From: Ignavibacteria bacterium
GTDB lineage: Bacteria; Bacteroidota; Ignavibacteria; Tepidaquicellales; Tepidaquicellaceae
Direction: 5' to 3'
Assembly: GCA_036262055.1 (NCBI GenBank)
Contig: DATAJP010000003.1
Location: 682,001 to 746,000, forward strand
DNA length: 64,000 bases
The stretch's first letter is position 1, and every line of letters starts with the position of its first letter. Below are positions 1 to 22,875 of the stretch, piece after piece. The position numbers and the translations under genes were made by a program. The notes below the pieces were generated by a model, which saw only the letters and a list, made by a program, of their open reading frames with translations, did not search any database and was not told the origin of the DNA.

Positions 1-1311
1 TTTCTTTCTGTTTTCTTTCATCCAGTTCTCGACATATTCATAAATCAAATTTACTCTCCTCATTTGAACTGTATAAAGGGCTAATGTATCTAATCTGACA
101 ACAAAGTCAGGTGTAATTCCACCGCCGCCGTAAACTGTTCTTCCGCCAAAAGTTTTGAATACAGGTCTTGTTGAATCAGCATTATCATTATTATGGAAAA
201 TATTTTCGCCTTCTGTTAATTCTTCAAGCAATTGGTTTTTATATGTTCCGCCGTCATAAGGCTTTTGAATCAATCTTCCGACAGGAGTGTAATATCTTGC
301 CGTAGTTACTCTGAATGCAGAACCATCCGATAGGTCGAATTGTCTCTGAACCAAACCTTTCCCGAAAGTATTTTCACCAACTATCAAACCCCTGTCCCAA
401 TCCTGCATTGCACCGGAAACAATCTCGCTTGCTGATGCTGAACCGCCGTTTACAAGAACAATTAACGGAATATCGGCATAAGGTCCACCTTGGGAATCAT
501 ACTGCTCATTAAACTCAGGAACTCTACTCTTTGTATAAACAATTTTCTTTCCTTTTGGGATAAACAAACTTGCCATTTTAAATGACTGGTCGAGATACCC
601 GCCGGGATTACCGCGCAAATCAAGAAGAAGTTTTTTCATTCCCTGAGAACTTAGCTTATTCATTGCCTGAACAAACTCATCGTAAGTGGTTGCAGAAAAC
701 TTCGATACTTTTATATATCCGATTTCGTTGTCATACATAAATGATGCATCAACACTGTAAAGCGGAATTTTATCTCTTGTAATTTCAAACTCAAGCGGCT
801 GCGCAGTTCCTGCTCTTTTTATTGTAACATTAACTTTTGTGCCTTTTTGACCGCGAAGCTTTTTAGGAACATCCTCACGAGTCATTTTTATTGCATTTGT
901 GCCGTCAATTTTTATGATTTTATCACCTGCTTGGATGCCAAGTTTTTCGGAAGGACCTCCGCTGATTGGAGAAACAATTGTAATTGTATCATTAATTATA
1001 TCAAACTCAACTCCGATTCCTTCAAAACTTCCCTGAAAATCTTCGTTAACTCTTTTTAACTGCTCGGGAGTAATATAAACTGAGTGCGGGTCTAAATCCT
1101 GAAGCATTCCTTTTATTGCTTCCTCGGTCAGCTTCTGAGAATCAACTTCATCAACATAATATCTTGAAGTAATATTAAGAACTTCATTAAATTTTCTTAC
1201 TTGTCCGCCTATTTTATCATCAGATTGAGCAACCTGAATTTTCATTCCAACAAAAATGCTCAGTCCGATAAGAATTATTATAAAGGGAATTAAAATTTTT
1301 TTATTTGTCAT
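1..1311 (-). CDS. S41-family C-terminal processing protease (partial, 3' end outside window)
   Basis: This is a periplasmic serine protease of the CtpA/Prc family; the reading frame stays open to the window edge, so the C-terminus is missing (437 codons seen). The N-terminus has one membrane-anchor segment (residues about 5-23, rich in I/L/F). A PDZ domain follows at about 90-170 (FEGIGVEFDI, then GIQAGDKI), then the S41 catalytic domain. The motif NGGSASASEI near residue 289 carries the catalytic Ser, and FGKG near 316 carries the general-base Lys. Such proteases trim C-termini of secreted or membrane proteins. The ATG at 1311 is the only good start before the hydrophobic segment. The gene is read in the same direction as nuoM and lies 57 bases after it. 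Family assignment is firm; the substrate is unknown. Confidence 0.93.
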   Translation of the reverse strand, partial: MTNKKILIPFIIILIGLSIFVGMKIQVAQSDDKIGGQVRKFNEVLNITSRYYVDEVDSQKLTEEAIKGMLQDLDPHSVYITPEQLKRVNEDFQGSFEGIGVEFDIINDTITIVSPISGGPSEKLGIQAGDKIIKIDGTNAIKMTREDVPKKLRGQKGTKVNVTIKRAGTAQPLEFEITRDKIPLYSVDASFMYDNEIGYIKVSKFSATTYDEFVQAMNKLSSQGMKKLLLDLRGNPGGYLDQSFKMASLFIPKGKKIVYTKSRVPEFNEQYDSQGGPYADIPLIVLVNGGSASASEIVSGAMQDWDRGLIVGENTFGKGLVQRQFDLSDGSAFRVTTARYYTPVGRLIQKPYDGGTYKNQLLEELTEGENIFHNNDNADSTRPVFKTFGGRTVYGGGGITPDFVVRLDTLALYTVQMRRVNLIYEYVENWMKENRKK

Positions 1312-1368
1312 AAAATTCCATATATTATTTAACTTATTATTAAACATAAAAATATCTTATTTGTTTCA

Positions 1369-2907
1369 TTATTTACCTGAATTCGTATTTTCAGATACCA
1401 TTCTTGTCTTTGCCTGCTCAAAATTAACTAAAATATTTTTAACACTGTTTTCGGTAATTTTTAAGAAAGTATTCGGAGAAACTCCAATCCATACTATAAA
1501 AACAATAATCGGGATAATCGATGCAAGCTCCATTTTTGAAATATCTTTTAAGCCCTTGTTCTCTTCTTTATCAACCGGTCCCAACATAACACGCTGGTAT
1601 AACCATAACAAATATACGGCAGATAAAATTACCGCGGTTGTAGATATAATTACGTAAACATTGGTTCCAAGGTTAGGGGCATTGAACGCGCCAATGAGAA
1701 CCAAAAATTCTCCTATGAAACCGTTTAAACCGGGCAAACCAATTGAGGAAAATACAACGACAAGAAATATTATTGAAAAAATCGGCATAACTTTCATTAA
1801 TCCGCCGAATTGTGCGATTTCTTTGGTATGTCTGCGTTCATAGATCATTCCCACAATTAAGAACAGAGCACCCGTAGATAAACCGTGGTTTATCATCTGG
1901 ATTACACCTCCCTGAACTGCCTCAGTGGTCAAAGCAAAAATTCCCAAAACTATAAACCCAAGGTGGCTGACGGATGAATAAGCAACCAACTTTTTCATGT
2001 CTTTTTGGACAATTGAAAGTAGGGCACCATAAACAATTCCGATTACTGCCAGAACTACTATATATGGAGTAAGAACAATAAACCCTGCCGGGAAAAGCGT
2101 GAGTGAAAATCTTATTAAACCATAAGTTCCCATTTTTAAAAGCAACGCAGCAAGAATTACGCTGCCTGCAGTCGGTGCCTGAACGTGAGCATCGGGAAGC
2201 CACGTGTGAAACGGAAAAAGCGGGACTTTAATGAGAAAGCTTAATGTAAATAATATGAATAAATATGTCTGAATGTTTACAGGTAAATTCATGGAAACTG
2301 ATTTCAGTGCAATAAGGTCGGTGCTAAATGAACCTAACAATGGCGTACACAAAAACCCTAACCATACAATTCCTATAAGCAGAAGAACACTACCGAACAT
2401 CGTATATAAGAAAAATTTAACCGTAGCATAAATTCTGTTTTCACCGCCCCAAACACCGATGAGGAAATACATTGGAATGAGAATGAATTCCCAGAAAACA
2501 TAAAACAAAACCAAGTCAAGCGCGCAAAAAACTCCAATTAATCCCCCAAGCAGAATTAAAAGCAAGAAATAATAATTCTTTAAATTCTTATTAACTGTAT
2601 TCCACGATGCGAGAATGCAGAGCGGCATTATGAAGGTCGAGAGAACAATTAATAAAAGCGATATCCCATCGATTCCCAGGAAGTAATATGTATTGAAAAG
2701 TGAAATCCATAAAGTCTTTTCAACAAATTGGAAGTCACCATTTGCGGGATTGAAAGAGAAATACAAGAAAAGCGATGCAATGAAAGTTATGATAGTAACT
2801 GCCAGAGCATACGTCTTAATTAAGGTTGCATTTTCTTTTTTAAAAAATAAAATCGGAAGTGATAAAATTATCGGTAAAAAGATGAGTATGGAAAGTATGT
2901 TATTCAA
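1369..2907 (-). CDS. nuoM: NADH-quinone oxidoreductase subunit M
   Basis: This 512-residue polytopic membrane protein is an antiporter-like proton-pumping subunit of respiratory complex I. The proton-antiporter core is recognisable: VFWEFILIPMYFLIG near residue 135 holds the conserved Glu of TM5. FHTWLPDAHVQAPTAGSV near 233 and KKLVAYSSVSHLG near 305 are NuoM/NuoL hallmarks. The length matches NuoM (about 500) rather than NuoL (over 600), and there is no long C-terminal lateral helix. No other nuo gene is in the window. The upstream neighbour is an unrelated Rossmann protein 21 bases away, so nuoM here is either detached from its operon or at the end of a unit continuing elsewhere. The assignment is strong. 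Confidence 0.95.
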   Translation of the reverse strand: MNNILSILIFLPIILSLPILFFKKENATLIKTYALAVTIITFIASLFLYFSFNPANGDFQFVEKTLWISLFNTYYFLGIDGISLLLIVLSTFIMPLCILASWNTVNKNLKNYYFLLLILLGGLIGVFCALDLVLFYVFWEFILIPMYFLIGVWGGENRIYATVKFFLYTMFGSVLLLIGIVWLGFLCTPLLGSFSTDLIALKSVSMNLPVNIQTYLFILFTLSFLIKVPLFPFHTWLPDAHVQAPTAGSVILAALLLKMGTYGLIRFSLTLFPAGFIVLTPYIVVLAVIGIVYGALLSIVQKDMKKLVAYSSVSHLGFIVLGIFALTTEAVQGGVIQMINHGLSTGALFLIVGMIYERRHTKEIAQFGGLMKVMPIFSIIFLVVVFSSIGLPGLNGFIGEFLVLIGAFNAPNLGTNVYVIISTTAVILSAVYLLWLYQRVMLGPVDKEENKGLKDISKMELASIIPIIVFIVWIGVSPNTFLKITENSVKNILVNFEQAKTRMVSENTNSGK

Positions 2908-15338: not shown

Positions 15339-16562
15339 CTATTTTGTTAGCATCATTTTCTTAGTTTCGACAAAATCCCCTGCCTGAATCCTGTAAAAAT
15401 AAATTCCGCTTGCAGAATTGCTGCCGTCGAATATTGCTTCAAAAGTCCCTGCCTGATGATTTTCATTAACGAGTGTGACTATTTCTTTACCGTTAATATC
15501 ATAAACTTTGATACTCACAAATCCGGATTTAGGAATTTGATATTGAATTTTAGTAATAGGGTTAAATGGATTTGGATAGTTTTGAGAGAGATGGTATTGA
15601 GAAGGAATTTCGTTTGAAATCAAATTAATACTGACACTACCTCCGTTATCTGTATAAAACAATTTATTTTTTGATGCAACCCATCCGGTTTTTCCACTTA
15701 CAAATTGAAAATCTGAATGATAATATCCAAAGTATGGAAATTCAAATAATGTCCAGTTAACTCCAGAGTTATATGTTCTTAAAATTTTATTTTCAGATGC
15801 AACCCAAACTGTATCAGATGAAATCGACTGAAGTTTTGCGTATTGAATTTGAGGACTTTTAATTAGTGTCCAGCTTTCTCCACCATTTATGGTTTTATAA
15901 ATATGTTGTGTGCTTGAATGGCCACCAATAGCCCATCCTGATGTATTATTTATAAACCAACCCTGCGTTAGTGGAGGAATTGTTACTGAATTAATCCAAT
16001 TGCTTCCATTGTCTGTTGATTTATAACTATTATAACTGAATAACCAATCATTATATAGCGGATGGAAAAATCCAAATAAAGCATTAGGCACCTCAGGAAT
16101 TTTATACCAATTATTACCAGCATCTACTGTTTTATAAAGAGAACCTCCGGGTGCAAAACCTGTGTTTTCATTTATGAAAATAACTTGAAGAAAATCATCT
16201 TCAGTCCCGCATTCAATACAGCTTGATAAAAACCAATCATCTCCTCCATTAGTTGTTTTATAAATTTTACCGCTATTACAGGCAATAAATCCCGTATTAA
16301 TATTAATAAAGTAAATATCTTCCGGTGTATAGCTAGATTGTATTAAACTTGTGTCCCAATTTTTACCGTTATCATACGTTTTTAAAACTTTTATGTGAGA
16401 ATTTGCATCTGCGCATACCCAGCCTGTATCATTATTTAAAAAATGAATGCCAGTAATATTAACTGTAGTTTCTAAATTTAAAATTTCATTCCAGTTAGAT
16501 TGGGGAAATATTGCTTTGGGTAATAATGAACAAAATAATAATATGATTAAAAATCTCATCAA
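15339..16562 (-). CDS. Secreted YCF48/BNR-repeat protein with T9SS sorting domain
   Basis: This 407-residue exported protein has a signal peptide (FLIILLFCSLLPKAIFPQS). A beta-propeller-like series of YCF48/BNR repeats follows, each with a pattern such as TYDNGKNWDTS, TTNGGDDWF, TVDAGNNWY and STDNGSNWI, alternating with DTGWV or NTGF strands. The C-terminal 80 residues form a type A sorting domain: QNYPNPFNPITKIQYQIP, VYDINGKEIVTLVN, ASGIYFYRI, ending KKMMLTK. Such proteins cross the outer membrane through the type IX (Por) secretion system and are anchored or released at the surface. It is monocistronic and divergent from mnmA. Its ligand is unknown. Confidence 0.9.
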   Translation of the reverse strand: MMRFLIILLFCSLLPKAIFPQSNWNEILNLETTVNITGIHFLNNDTGWVCADANSHIKVLKTYDNGKNWDTSLIQSSYTPEDIYFININTGFIACNSGKIYKTTNGGDDWFLSSCIECGTEDDFLQVIFINENTGFAPGGSLYKTVDAGNNWYKIPEVPNALFGFFHPLYNDWLFSYNSYKSTDNGSNWINSVTIPPLTQGWFINNTSGWAIGGHSSTQHIYKTINGGESWTLIKSPQIQYAKLQSISSDTVWVASENKILRTYNSGVNWTLFEFPYFGYYHSDFQFVSGKTGWVASKNKLFYTDNGGSVSINLISNEIPSQYHLSQNYPNPFNPITKIQYQIPKSGFVSIKVYDINGKEIVTLVNENHQAGTFEAIFDGSNSASGIYFYRIQAGDFVETKKMMLTK

Positions 16563-19740: not shown

Positions 19741-20007
19741 TTAATCTGCTAATTGTGTGCGGCGGTTCAGTTCGCTCGTGCGTTCTGAAACAGTGTAGAG
19801 ATAACCATATTGCCAGTCAATATGATTTTGTTCACCTATGCTGTAATTCATCTTCAGCATTGTTCTTATCCAGGATTTGGCGATTTTTTGAGAGTTAAAT
19901 TTAAATACAGTAAAATCAGACGGATTATTATGCAATTGTTTTTCGGACTGAATATCATTTGTCAGACCGCAATATGTATAACCGATATATTTTTTTAAAT
20001 CTCTCAA
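19741..20007 (-). CDS. Small uncharacterised protein
   Basis: The 88-residue protein begins MRDLKKYIGYTYCGLTNDIQ and continues with a helix FNSQKIAKSWIRTMLKM, then WQYGYLYTV. The first part has a faint resemblance to the GIY-YIG opening (two short strands followed by a turn), but the catalytic Arg and Glu are not evident, so I do not assign it. There is no signal peptide or membrane segment. It stands alone between the ABC ATPase and the small secreted-protein array. Coding status rests on an uninterrupted frame with natural composition. Confidence 0.5.
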   Translation of the reverse strand: MRDLKKYIGYTYCGLTNDIQSEKQLHNNPSDFTVFKFNSQKIAKSWIRTMLKMNYSIGEQNHIDWQYGYLYTVSERTSELNRRTQLAD

Positions 20008-20145: not shown

Positions 20146-20173
20146 CCCCTCTTTTTGCTCTAAAAAAGAGGGG
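20146..20173. repeat. Perfect 11-bp hairpin repeat downstream of the small secreted-protein array
   Basis: CCCCTCTTTTT (20146-20156) pairs perfectly with AAAAAGAGGGG (20163-20173) around a six-base loop, and is flanked by TTGGGGG. It lies just after the last gene of the array on the minus strand and could end its transcription. Its GC-rich ends resemble a dispersed intergenic repeat. The rest of 20008-20235 shows nothing else. Confidence 0.7.
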
Positions 20174-20235: not shown

Positions 20236-20415
20236 TTACGGATTTTCAACAATCTCAACATCAACCAATGTCATATCTTGTTCTTCATAAGTAAGAATCA
20301 TGGTTGTATCATTGCCGAGGTCTCTGTACTCATAAATATATTGAGTAGCAAAAGAACTTTTAATGCCGACTAATGAGATGATTGTCAAGAGTAATGAGAA
20401 TAATAGAGTTTTCAT
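20236..20415 (-). CDS. Small secreted protein, array member 4
   Basis: This 59-residue protein was found by reading the minus strand from the ATG at 20415 to TAA at 20236. It has a signal peptide (MKTLLFSLLLTIISLVGIKSSFA) and a mature part of about 36 residues: TQYIYEYRDLGND, then LTYEEQDMTLVDVEIVENP. The mature part aligns with the next three genes, especially the QYIYEYRD(L/I)GND stretch, but its tail is VENP where the others end HEDN. It is the most diverged copy. Function is unknown. Confidence 0.8.
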   Translation of the reverse strand: MKTLLFSLLLTIISLVGIKSSFATQYIYEYRDLGNDTTMILTYEEQDMTLVDVEIVENP

Positions 20416-20460
20416 TTTTGCCCTTTCTTAATTTATAAACTTTTTAGTTTTATATACGAA

Positions 20461-20649
20461 TTAATTGTCTTCGTGGATTATGTCAACAGCGATTAATCTA
20501 TCATCGGAACATCTGTATGTTTTCACCAAAACTCTATCATTTCCAATCGGATGATATGTATAGTAACAATCCTCAGCATAGCTGTTATTTAAGCCAATGC
20601 CTGTTACTGAAATTATTGTTAAGATTAAACCTAATATTATTTTTTTCAT
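20461..20649 (-). CDS. Small secreted protein, array member 3
   Basis: The 62-residue protein has a signal peptide MKKIILGLILTIISVTGIGLNNSYA and a mature part of some 37 residues beginning EDCYYTYHPIGND and ending RLIAVDIIHEDN. Compared with its paralogues it has two Cys (in DCYY and RCSD), which could form a disulfide after export; the others lack them. The signal peptide is nearly identical to that of member 2. It is co-directional with the array, with 45 bases to member 4 and 19 to member 2. Confidence 0.82.
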   Translation of the reverse strand: MKKIILGLILTIISVTGIGLNNSYAEDCYYTYHPIGNDRVLVKTYRCSDDRLIAVDIIHEDN

Positions 20650-20668
20650 GGCTTTAAACTTTTAAGAT

Positions 20669-20860
20669 TTAATTATCCTCATGGATAATTTCAACTTCAA
20701 CTATTCTCATATCATCTTCTGAATCATAAGTGGTCTTCAATACCATATCATTTCCTATATCTCTGTATTCATAAATATATTGGTCTGCATAGCCGGTGTT
20801 TAATCCGAAACCGGTTACTGAGATAATTGTTAAAACTATTCCTAATATTACTTTTTTCAT
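20669..20860 (-). CDS. Small secreted protein, array member 2
   Basis: I place the start at the ATG at 20860 (MKKVILGIVLTIISVTG) because it aligns with member 3; an ATG at 20878 would add six residues. The signal peptide ends near GYA, leaving DQYIYEYRDIGNDMVLKTTYD and a tail RIVEVEIIHEDN. The mature chain is about 38 residues, with alternating polar/aromatic pattern suggestive of a small beta-sheet. It has no Cys. Its repeated tail motif VxIIHEDN is shared with members 1 and 3. Confidence 0.82.
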   Translation of the reverse strand: MKKVILGIVLTIISVTGFGLNTGYADQYIYEYRDIGNDMVLKTTYDSEDDMRIVEVEIIHEDN

Positions 20861-20900
20861 TTTTGTGATGCTTTTCATTTAATTTTAAATTGTGTGTTAA

Positions 20901-21128
20901 TTAGTTATCCTCGTGGATTATATCGATGTCAACTAATCTGTTATCAGATTCTCTGTAAGTCATTCTTAACACCCATTGGCTGTTAAGTCTTTTGTATTCA
21001 TATCTGTATTGAGAAACAGTATTAACAACTGAAGTAGTTGTTTCTGCTGCAGTAGCAGTATTCACGAATCCGGTTAAACCGCTGATTGAAACTACAGTTA
21101 AGATTAAACCTAATATTAAATTTTTCAT
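20901..21128 (-). CDS. Small secreted protein, array member 1
   Basis: This is the first gene of the array. The ATG at 21128 (MKNLILGLILTVVSISG) is preferred over one at 21179 because it aligns with the paralogues and has a purine-rich GGGGG seven bases upstream. The signal peptide ends near ATAAE, followed by a linker TTTSVVNTVS not present in the other copies. The conserved part is QYRYEYKRLNSQWVLRMTY, then RLVDIDIIHEDN. The 75-residue precursor is the longest member. Function is unknown. Confidence 0.82.
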   Translation of the reverse strand: MKNLILGLILTVVSISGLTGFVNTATAAETTTSVVNTVSQYRYEYKRLNSQWVLRMTYRESDNRLVDIDIIHEDN

Positions 21129-21360
21129 TTTGATAGCCCCCGCTTTTTTAATGATTTTATTTTTAAAATTTTGTTTCATTTAATAAACTTATACAAAGTT
21201 AAAGATACTGAAATATCAAAGCAAAGGAAAAAAAACCTGAAATGCTCCTCGTTTTCCAACAAAAAAAGTTTCTGAAAGCTGCATTTTTCTATTGCTTTTT
21301 TAAATAATTATGCTGAATTTCATAAAGGTTTTTAATTAAAATGCTCCTTGTAGCAAAACT

Positions 21361-22875
21361 ATGAAAAATCAATTTATTGACATCCTCAGAACTTTAAACA
21401 AAGACGAGGTAAAAAACCTGCTTTTATTCGTCGATTCGCCATATTTCAACAAAAGCGAACGTTTAATCAAACTTTTCAGAGAGCTTGTTAAAATCCACCC
21501 TGATTATAACAACATAACCTCCGAAGAAATTCACAAACGGGTCTTTCCTCATTTAGAATATAATGATTCTACGATGAGAAGGTTATTTTCCGATTGCGAT
21601 AAAGTTCTTAAGGAATTCCTTAAATATGTAAATTACGAGAAAAATGCCTTCAGAGTTAATGAAATTTACAGGGAAGAGTTAACCGGAAGAGCATTATCAG
21701 AGCTCCAAGCTGCAAATACGTTCGAAATGGAGAATATGTTTAACCAAAATGGGATGTTCGAAGACCTTTACTTCTTATATCGTTCGAATTTTGAAGCCGA
21801 TAATTCCGTATTCTCATATATAAATAAAAAGCTTATAAAAACAGGTAAAGTTCGCTCTGAAATTGAAAACCTCTCCAATTCAGCAAATTATTTATTTATT
21901 TATTTTCTTATAAGAAATATAAAGTTATTTATTAACATAAAAAACTACCAATCTTTATATTCAACAAGCACAAATGCTGATGATATTAAAGCTACAATAG
22001 AAAGAATTTTCAATCTATATGGTGAGGAAGAAATTAAGAAATACTTCATCATCAAAAATTATGATTATTCTTTCATTTACACTATATATTTGCACTTATT
22101 CAAAGCTTTTGCATATCCGAACGAAAAAGGACATTATTTTGAGCTGAAATCCTTACTTAATAAGAACATCGATAAATTTATCATTTATGAACGACAATAT
22201 TTAGTCAAATCTTTAATCGCATATTGCGACGTAATGAGGAACCATCCTGATAATCCTAAAATGAAAGAGCAGTTTGATGATGAACTGATATATTTATATG
22301 AGCTTACTCTTAAGAAAAAGTACTATGCAACAGGTGCTTCACCTTATTTATCATTGAACATATTCAGAAATATTTTAATCATTGCAATAAATTCCGGAAA
22401 AATAAAATGGGCGCAGAAGTTTATCAAGATTTACTCGGACAAGCTTAATCCAAAACAAAAAGAAGACGCTGTTAATTATTCTTACGGAAGATTGCATTTT
22501 GCACAAAAAGACTATGCAAAAGCATTGACTTATTTTAATCAGCTGCAGACAAACGATGCTAACTTAAGAAACGATGAAAAGAATATGGCTCTCATAATCA
22601 ACTATGAACTTGGAAACTTTCAGAATCTTGATTATTTATTACCGGCTCACAAAAAATATTTCAAGCGCAATACACTTCTTTCAAAAGACAGGAAGAAATT
22701 CTACCTTACATTCAATTCTTTCTTAGACAGGCTGAACAAACTTAACGGCTACAGAAACTTTATTTATATCAACAGGTTCATTGAGGATATAAAAGCGACT
22801 CCGACTTTGCTATATGGCAGCTGGTTTAAGGAAAAGGCAAACGAACTTTTAGTCGAAAGAAGAAAAACAGCATAA
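21361..22875 (+). CDS. Uncharacterised all-helical protein
   Basis: The 504-residue cytoplasmic protein has no signal, membrane span or enzyme motif. It begins MKNQFIDILRTLNKDEVKNLLLFVDSPYFNKS. The sequence looks entirely alpha-helical, with TPR-like segments near the C-terminus (YSYGRLHFAQKDYAKALTYFNQLQ near 375, then NMALIINYELGNFQNLDYLL). It starts after a 180-base gap that divides it from the secreted-protein array and precedes murI. I do not recognise a named family; a scaffold or regulatory role is only a guess from the repeats. Confidence 0.8.
   Translation: MKNQFIDILRTLNKDEVKNLLLFVDSPYFNKSERLIKLFRELVKIHPDYNNITSEEIHKRVFPHLEYNDSTMRRLFSDCDKVLKEFLKYVNYEKNAFRVNEIYREELTGRALSELQAANTFEMENMFNQNGMFEDLYFLYRSNFEADNSVFSYINKKLIKTGKVRSEIENLSNSANYLFIYFLIRNIKLFINIKNYQSLYSTSTNADDIKATIERIFNLYGEEEIKKYFIIKNYDYSFIYTIYLHLFKAFAYPNEKGHYFELKSLLNKNIDKFIIYERQYLVKSLIAYCDVMRNHPDNPKMKEQFDDELIYLYELTLKKKYYATGASPYLSLNIFRNILIIAINSGKIKWAQKFIKIYSDKLNPKQKEDAVNYSYGRLHFAQKDYAKALTYFNQLQTNDANLRNDEKNMALIINYELGNFQNLDYLLPAHKKYFKRNTLLSKDRKKFYLTFNSFLDRLNKLNGYRNFIYINRFIEDIKATPTLLYGSWFKEKANELLVERRKTA

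Follow-up and report, generated by a model that had tools for sequence, protein, structure and literature searches.

A predicted HTH-TPR protein gene divergent from an operon of four small, probably exported proteins in Ignavibacteria

Introduction

In the RRNPP(A) systems (Rap-Phr, NprR-NprX, PlcR-PapR, Rgg-SHP, and AimR-AimP), the gene for a small Sec-type exported peptide lies beside the gene for a cytoplasmic TPR-like protein, and the exported product is a propeptide that carries a short pheromone. The receptors are about 250-500 amino acids long, and a size of 10-100 amino acids has been used as the criterion for the propeptide in a study (RRNPP_detector) that covered only complete Firmicutes genomes and mobile elements (PMC10075063). 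A second related architecture is that of the SARP/AfsR-type regulators, in which an OmpR-like winged helix is followed by a TPR-like BTAD domain. Direct-repeat operators are typical of the OmpR-like fold. We know of no SARP that has been linked to a divergently transcribed exported peptide.

Here we analyze a locus in a 64,000-nucleotide stretch of an Ignavibacteria genome (the window). Its four peptides fall within the RRNPP propeptide size range and have Sec-type signals as judged by a simple rule and by eye. The neighboring TPR-like protein has 504 amino acids and its relatives mostly 478-509, which places the family at the limit of the RRNPP receptor range. The peptide operon and the TPR gene are divergent and 232 nt apart. 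We consider it probable that the locus is a divergent module formed by a sequence-specific HTH-TPR regulator and its own exported-peptide operon. The conserved unit comprises the peptide operon, the divergent TPR gene, and a phased pair of direct repeats, and is thus larger than first reported in an earlier note, which had described the peptide genes.

Results

Four open reading frames on the minus strand, supported by alignment and profile matches, make up the peptide array. Copy 1 (20901-21128, 75 residues, profile E 1e-31) is nearest to the divergent promoter region and is followed by copy 2 (20669-20860, 63 residues, or 69 from an upstream ATG), copy 3 (20461-20649, 62 residues), and copy 4 (20236-20415, 59 residues). 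The gaps between them are only 45, 19, and 40 nt, and we thus read the four frames as one operon. A hairpin resembling an intrinsic terminator is found downstream on the same strand (20146-20173; 11-bp stem, T-rich tail, -15.9 kcal/mol, z -4.8). An 88-residue open reading frame with a TTG start and no Pfam match (19741-20007, minus strand) is located between the operon and an ABC transporter gene.

The earlier note had recognized four tandem small secreted paralogues, and this view holds, together with its local duplication, which the alignment of the copies supports. Its left boundary at 20236 is correct, whereas its right boundary at 21179 is the upstream ATG of a 92-residue reading; the MKN start at 21128 lines up with the starts of the other copies, and the array ends there. 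The other three peptides are 50, 50, and 39% identical to the copy at 20901-21128. Their signal peptides, previously called near-identical, are merely similar (8-17 of 22 residues identical between pairs); all four have a basic start, a hydrophobic core, and a small-x-Ala end, so that export, also part of the earlier description, is supported by sequence. Of the proposed (Q/Y)YxYEYRxxGND core, YxYEY is shared by the copies, and the full YxYEYRxxGND is present in just two of the four. The C-terminal (D/E)IIHEDN tail is indeed found in three copies, with the 59-residue copy lacking IIHEDN and ending in VENP, and the two cysteines are located in the mature part of the 62-residue copy, again as described.

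Among the four peptides, the measurable pairwise dN/dS values are 0.17-0.47, several pairs being almost saturated at synonymous sites; between relatives at other loci the values are 0.06-0.43. These values argue for constraint at the protein level, in line with the selection suggested in the earlier note and not with the neutral decay it had named as a refutation. A search of the 2.87-Mb genome with their own profile gives strong matches (E 1e-30 to 1e-35) to these four peptides alone, and a genome from another genus of the same family has two diverged copies at the syntenic place (E 8e-13 and 2e-11); the array is thus not a chance occurrence. In that genome the two copies are followed by the same TPR-like gene and by three further genes, which we take from their sequences to be murI, pyrE, and an acyl-CoA dehydrogenase gene.

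Searches of related genomes with the peptide profile, an experiment proposed in the earlier note, recovered the family in 34 of the 44 genomes of the order (22 of 29 in the family of the window and 12 of 15 in a second family); about 200 genomes from elsewhere in the class yielded none, with 24 candidates scored per genome. Weak matches in the second family are also back to back with a relative of the TPR-like gene. In many subclades the mature peptides follow the approximate pattern Y.Y..V...G.WW.YVYD.DG.L...Y.EE, which may correspond to three short β-strands. Across subclades they are conserved along their whole length, as would be expected of a small folded domain. The best-preserved part within arrays is the last 12 residues (68 of 120 pooled positions identical versus 113 of 281 in the middle, counted over pairs that are not independent), and tails are alike within arrays and unlike between loci. 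At one locus, two tandem peptides (L055, 809-1003 and 1048-1269) have identical C-terminal 12 residues, ending in RVITQPIG, and a strongly different remaining mature part. At two loci of the second family the peptide gene (L020, 1732-1953; L033, 1755-1976) is followed by a codirectional 73-residue frame that lacks a signal peptide and resembles a type IX sorting domain (FlgD-like) standing by itself.

No match above cut-off was obtained for the peptides in Pfam or NCBIfam, and the previous statement that they belong to no named family thus stands. StcE_b-sandwich, heme o synthase, and NprX_fam were rejected as identities, all being far below cut-off. With one of the four copies as query, we found no match among PDB sequences and no relative among viral contigs, and a viral origin was set aside. 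The type IX sorting domain TIGR04183 has no match in the four peptides at E up to 10. A pattern scan of named genome contigs returned no peptide relatives; we do not count this as absence, because the profile searches later recovered many. A literature search, largely limited to openly accessible papers, returned no description of the peptide or of its TPR partner.

The TPR gene (21361-22875, plus strand) encodes the 504-residue protein and is separated from the peptide operon by a putative shared promoter and operator region (21129-21360), a layout that is kept in relatives. An iterated profile identified 54 distinct peptide frames in the fetched loci, many of which had also trained it. Four of these are at contig ends, and of the 50 whose flanks are long enough, 47 have a TPR-family gene as divergent neighbor. 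Of the other three, one is alone (L125), one is a match of 18 bits that we take as chance (L212), and one faces a TPR-like gene missed by the TPR profile (L139). In the latter case the peptide gene (1654-1884, plus strand) and the gene for a 485-residue protein (NLIHSLTSDERGYFRK..., 3-1454, minus strand) have starts 200 nt apart, and the protein is possibly a distant branch of the TPR superfamily. When the pairs in G012, G013, G021, and at two places in G016 were detected, their peptides were not yet part of the profile. The pairing is near-obligate and extends across two families.

We compared these frequencies with those for 221 other genes from 20 stretches of 20 kb in this one genome. A divergent frame for an exported product of 50-100 residues, starting 130-300 nt away, is found next to 23 of 93 TPR genes versus 2 of the 221 controls, and any divergent signal-peptide frame within 400 nt next to 55 of 93 versus 19 of 221. 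The 93 TPR genes had been fetched through the TPR search, and both counts rest on crude gene calls and a simple signal-peptide rule that missed the window's own locus, where the longer reading had been taken.

The TPR-like proteins form a family of paralogues. This genome encodes 12 of them (the window copy and L069-L079), and other genomes of the same taxonomic family have as many as 46 matches. Five closer sequences, used because the family profile varied too much to serve in a pattern scan, retrieved named relatives that are nearly all from Ignavibacteria assemblies. The TPR family corresponds to no named Pfam or NCBIfam family. In a tree of 119 TPR proteins, rooted by midpoint only, all 38 peptide-paired members fall into one clade of 45 (SH-aLRT 100), and none is found among the 74 others. 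The remaining seven members of the peptide clade face a small exported frame (two), a larger exported protein (one), or no partner by our rule (four). Outside this clade, most of the divergent neighbors that are present are larger exported proteins, of 130-1000 residues. Ten non-peptide partners, taken from this genome and from more distant ones, were examined, and seven of them carry the type IX sorting domain TIGR04183; one of these seven (L262) is codirectional. As far as a midpoint-rooted tree can suggest, the older role of the TPR family may have been to control or serve a neighboring exported protein, with the peptide as a specialization. Elsewhere in the window (15339-16562, minus strand), a 407-residue exported protein with YCF48-like repeats has a C-terminal end that reads as a type IX sorting domain, and the genome thus probably uses type IX secretion.

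The predicted structure of the 504-residue protein is all helical (pLDDT 85). For residues 99-504 the top VIA-align chains are RapI (Z 13.0), a phage Rap, and NprR (Z 12.5), and LGN and other TPR proteins tie with them; we thus assign a TPR-like fold and nothing more specific. Distant common descent with the RRNPP receptors is possible. TPR matches in Pfam are below cut-off, and a profile of 15 sequences found no relative among PDB sequences. The N-terminal 110 residues, modeled alone from 54 sequences (pLDDT 91), match CadC (Z 6.4, rmsd 3.2, 74 residues aligned), CovR (6.3), SaeR (5.8), ToxR (5.2), Fur-family proteins, and sigma region 4. These matches are modest (Z below 8, Foldseek E above 1), and the upper part of the list consists mostly of DNA-binding domains. 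No Pfam HTH domain was recognized in the family, searches of 15 members with winged-helix and BTAD models at E up to 1 were negative, and the N-terminal model has no wing strands. The predicted DNA-binding-like fold of residues ~1-95 is consistent with the repeats found in the intergenic region.

These are two direct repeats, AAATGCTCCTcGT and AAATGCTCCTtGT, located 99 nt apart. As candidate operators they are placed on the plus strand at 21240-21252 (AAATGCTCCTCGT) and 21339-21351 (AAATGCTCCTTGT), and AAATGCTCCTNGT occurs exactly twice in this genome, both times in the peptide-TPR intergenic region. The spacing class is common to unrelated motifs: other subclades have repeats of different sequence at 97 nt (TTGTCGCA, GTTGCTTAT, AATGTTGCT), 98 nt (ACGTAAT, TGTTAC), and 99 nt (TTTGTCGCT, CTGAATyGCTCG). 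Of the 20 subclade representatives, one per subclade, 8 have a pair at 97-99 nt, whereas dinucleotide shuffles gave 0.24 such cases on average and no more than 2 in any of 500. This contrast is to be read with the caution that representatives and spacing range were picked after viewing the data and that subclades share ancestry, so that it is not a formal probability. No spacing window outside this range exceeds 3 of the 20. About half of the representatives of the peptide clade have no repeat at 97-99 nt, and further cases are found at 86-88 and 77-79 nt; judged from these few cases, the spacing would shift by about 10 nt at a time, the length of one helical turn.

Constant spacing combined with changing sequence would be expected of two operators whose regulator changes its specificity. 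In the predicted recognition helix (residues ~69-82; for example in L041, L044, L226, and the window protein), subclades with TTGTCGC repeats have STxRN, and those with TGCT-containing repeats tend to have TMRRL, a possible specificity code. We rejected two other explanations for the repeats. A σ54 reading of the TTGC-containing repeat, made by eye, finds GG-N10-GC in only some members, and the other motifs lack it. The repeats are also not promoter elements of both genes, as their copies have the same direction although the genes diverge. A factor other than the TPR protein could bind them.

Discussion

In the mechanism we propose, the 504-residue protein would act as a cytoplasmic, sequence-specific regulator. 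Its HTH-like domain (residues ~1-95) would bind both direct repeats as phased operators within the shared promoter region. The TPR-like superhelix (residues ~96-504) would serve as a sensor or an oligomerization platform. The protein would thereby control the operon of four Sec-exported mini-proteins and probably also itself. The peptides would be dedicated partners of a single regulator clade, with sister clades facing larger exported proteins.

An extension of the regulator reading, which it would not contradict, is RRNPP-like feedback, on the model of PlcR-PapR or NprR-NprX: either the whole exported peptide or a fragment from its C terminus would re-enter the cell, bind the concave TPR surface, and switch the DNA-binding state. 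A small exported peptide encoded next to a TPR protein with an HTH-like N terminus fits most published criteria (PMC10075063; PMC9765709). The best-ranked structural matches are RapI, phage Rap, and NprR, and the peptide tails are best preserved within arrays and differ between loci. However, generic TPR chains match equally well, and conservation throughout the mature peptide is rather that of a small folded domain. In addition, the large exported partners in the sister clades cannot be imported ligands, and an outer membrane lies in the way of re-entry, which would also need an importer. We regard this feedback as possible but doubtful. We are similarly tentative about its broader form, a peptide-sensing TPR transcription-factor system in diderm Ignavibacteria with the peptide as ligand, in which regulator, operator, and tail co-diversify across paralogues, with unrelated peptides and a phased-operator grammar of its own.

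TPR proteins often serve as scaffolds or chaperones, and all across this family the partners are exported proteins, several of them type IX cargo. The 504-residue protein may thus be a dedicated cytoplasmic chaperone, targeting, or assembly factor for its exported neighbor, with the repeats belonging to another regulator. We find this unlikely: repeats that diverge in sequence and keep their spacing, as well as the DNA-binding-like N-terminal fold, fit a regulator better, and mature peptides of 35-50 residues with Sec signals hardly need a chaperone of 500 residues. Least probable of all, and in our estimate very improbable, are independently evolving peptides for antagonism or surface binding beside an unrelated TPR gene. 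Such peptides could well be small, apparently exported, duplicated, and constrained, as they are here, but their near-obligate pairing with one TPR clade in two families speaks against it; we also noticed no immunity-like gene and found no antimicrobial family match in Pfam or NCBIfam. Among the functions raised in the earlier note, signaling now belongs to one of the two leading readings and has a concrete partner gene, whereas antagonism and surface binding have gained no specific support.

Although no named family covers the peptide or the regulator, genomes of this group can carry dozens of TPR-family genes, which adjoin genes for exported proteins, often ones secreted by the type IX system. 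The operator reading, if true, suggests how the group regulates individual secreted products and offers ready regulator-operator-peptide triples for the study of specificity evolution. Should the peptides also be ligands, cytoplasmic TPR receptors would serve in peptide quorum sensing outside Firmicutes as well.

The module shares features with three known arrangements. As in type IX cargo neighborhoods, TPR-family members from sister clades have exported proteins next to them, most of those examined with a sorting domain; the peptides themselves are far smaller than such cargo and have no sorting-domain match. Like the SARP/AfsR-type regulators, the 504-residue protein is predicted to have a TPR-like domain after an OmpR-like HTH fold, and it is accompanied by direct-repeat candidate operators, but it lacks Pfam winged-helix and BTAD matches as well as predicted wing strands. 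The RRNPP(A) systems differ in that the 504-residue protein has no detectable sequence relation to their receptors, its HTH-like part resembles OmpR-type domains, the host belongs to the Ignavibacteria, the peptide is a conserved unit of 35-50 residues instead of a propeptide with a short pheromone, and sister-clade partners are large exported proteins. We thus do not file the module under RRNPP, since no common descent was found and ligand binding is putative. The likeness is one of layout: a small, probably Sec-exported peptide encoded, here in tandem copies, beside a TPR-like protein whose best structural matches include Rap and NprR and which, like NprR and PlcR, is predicted to begin with an HTH-like domain.
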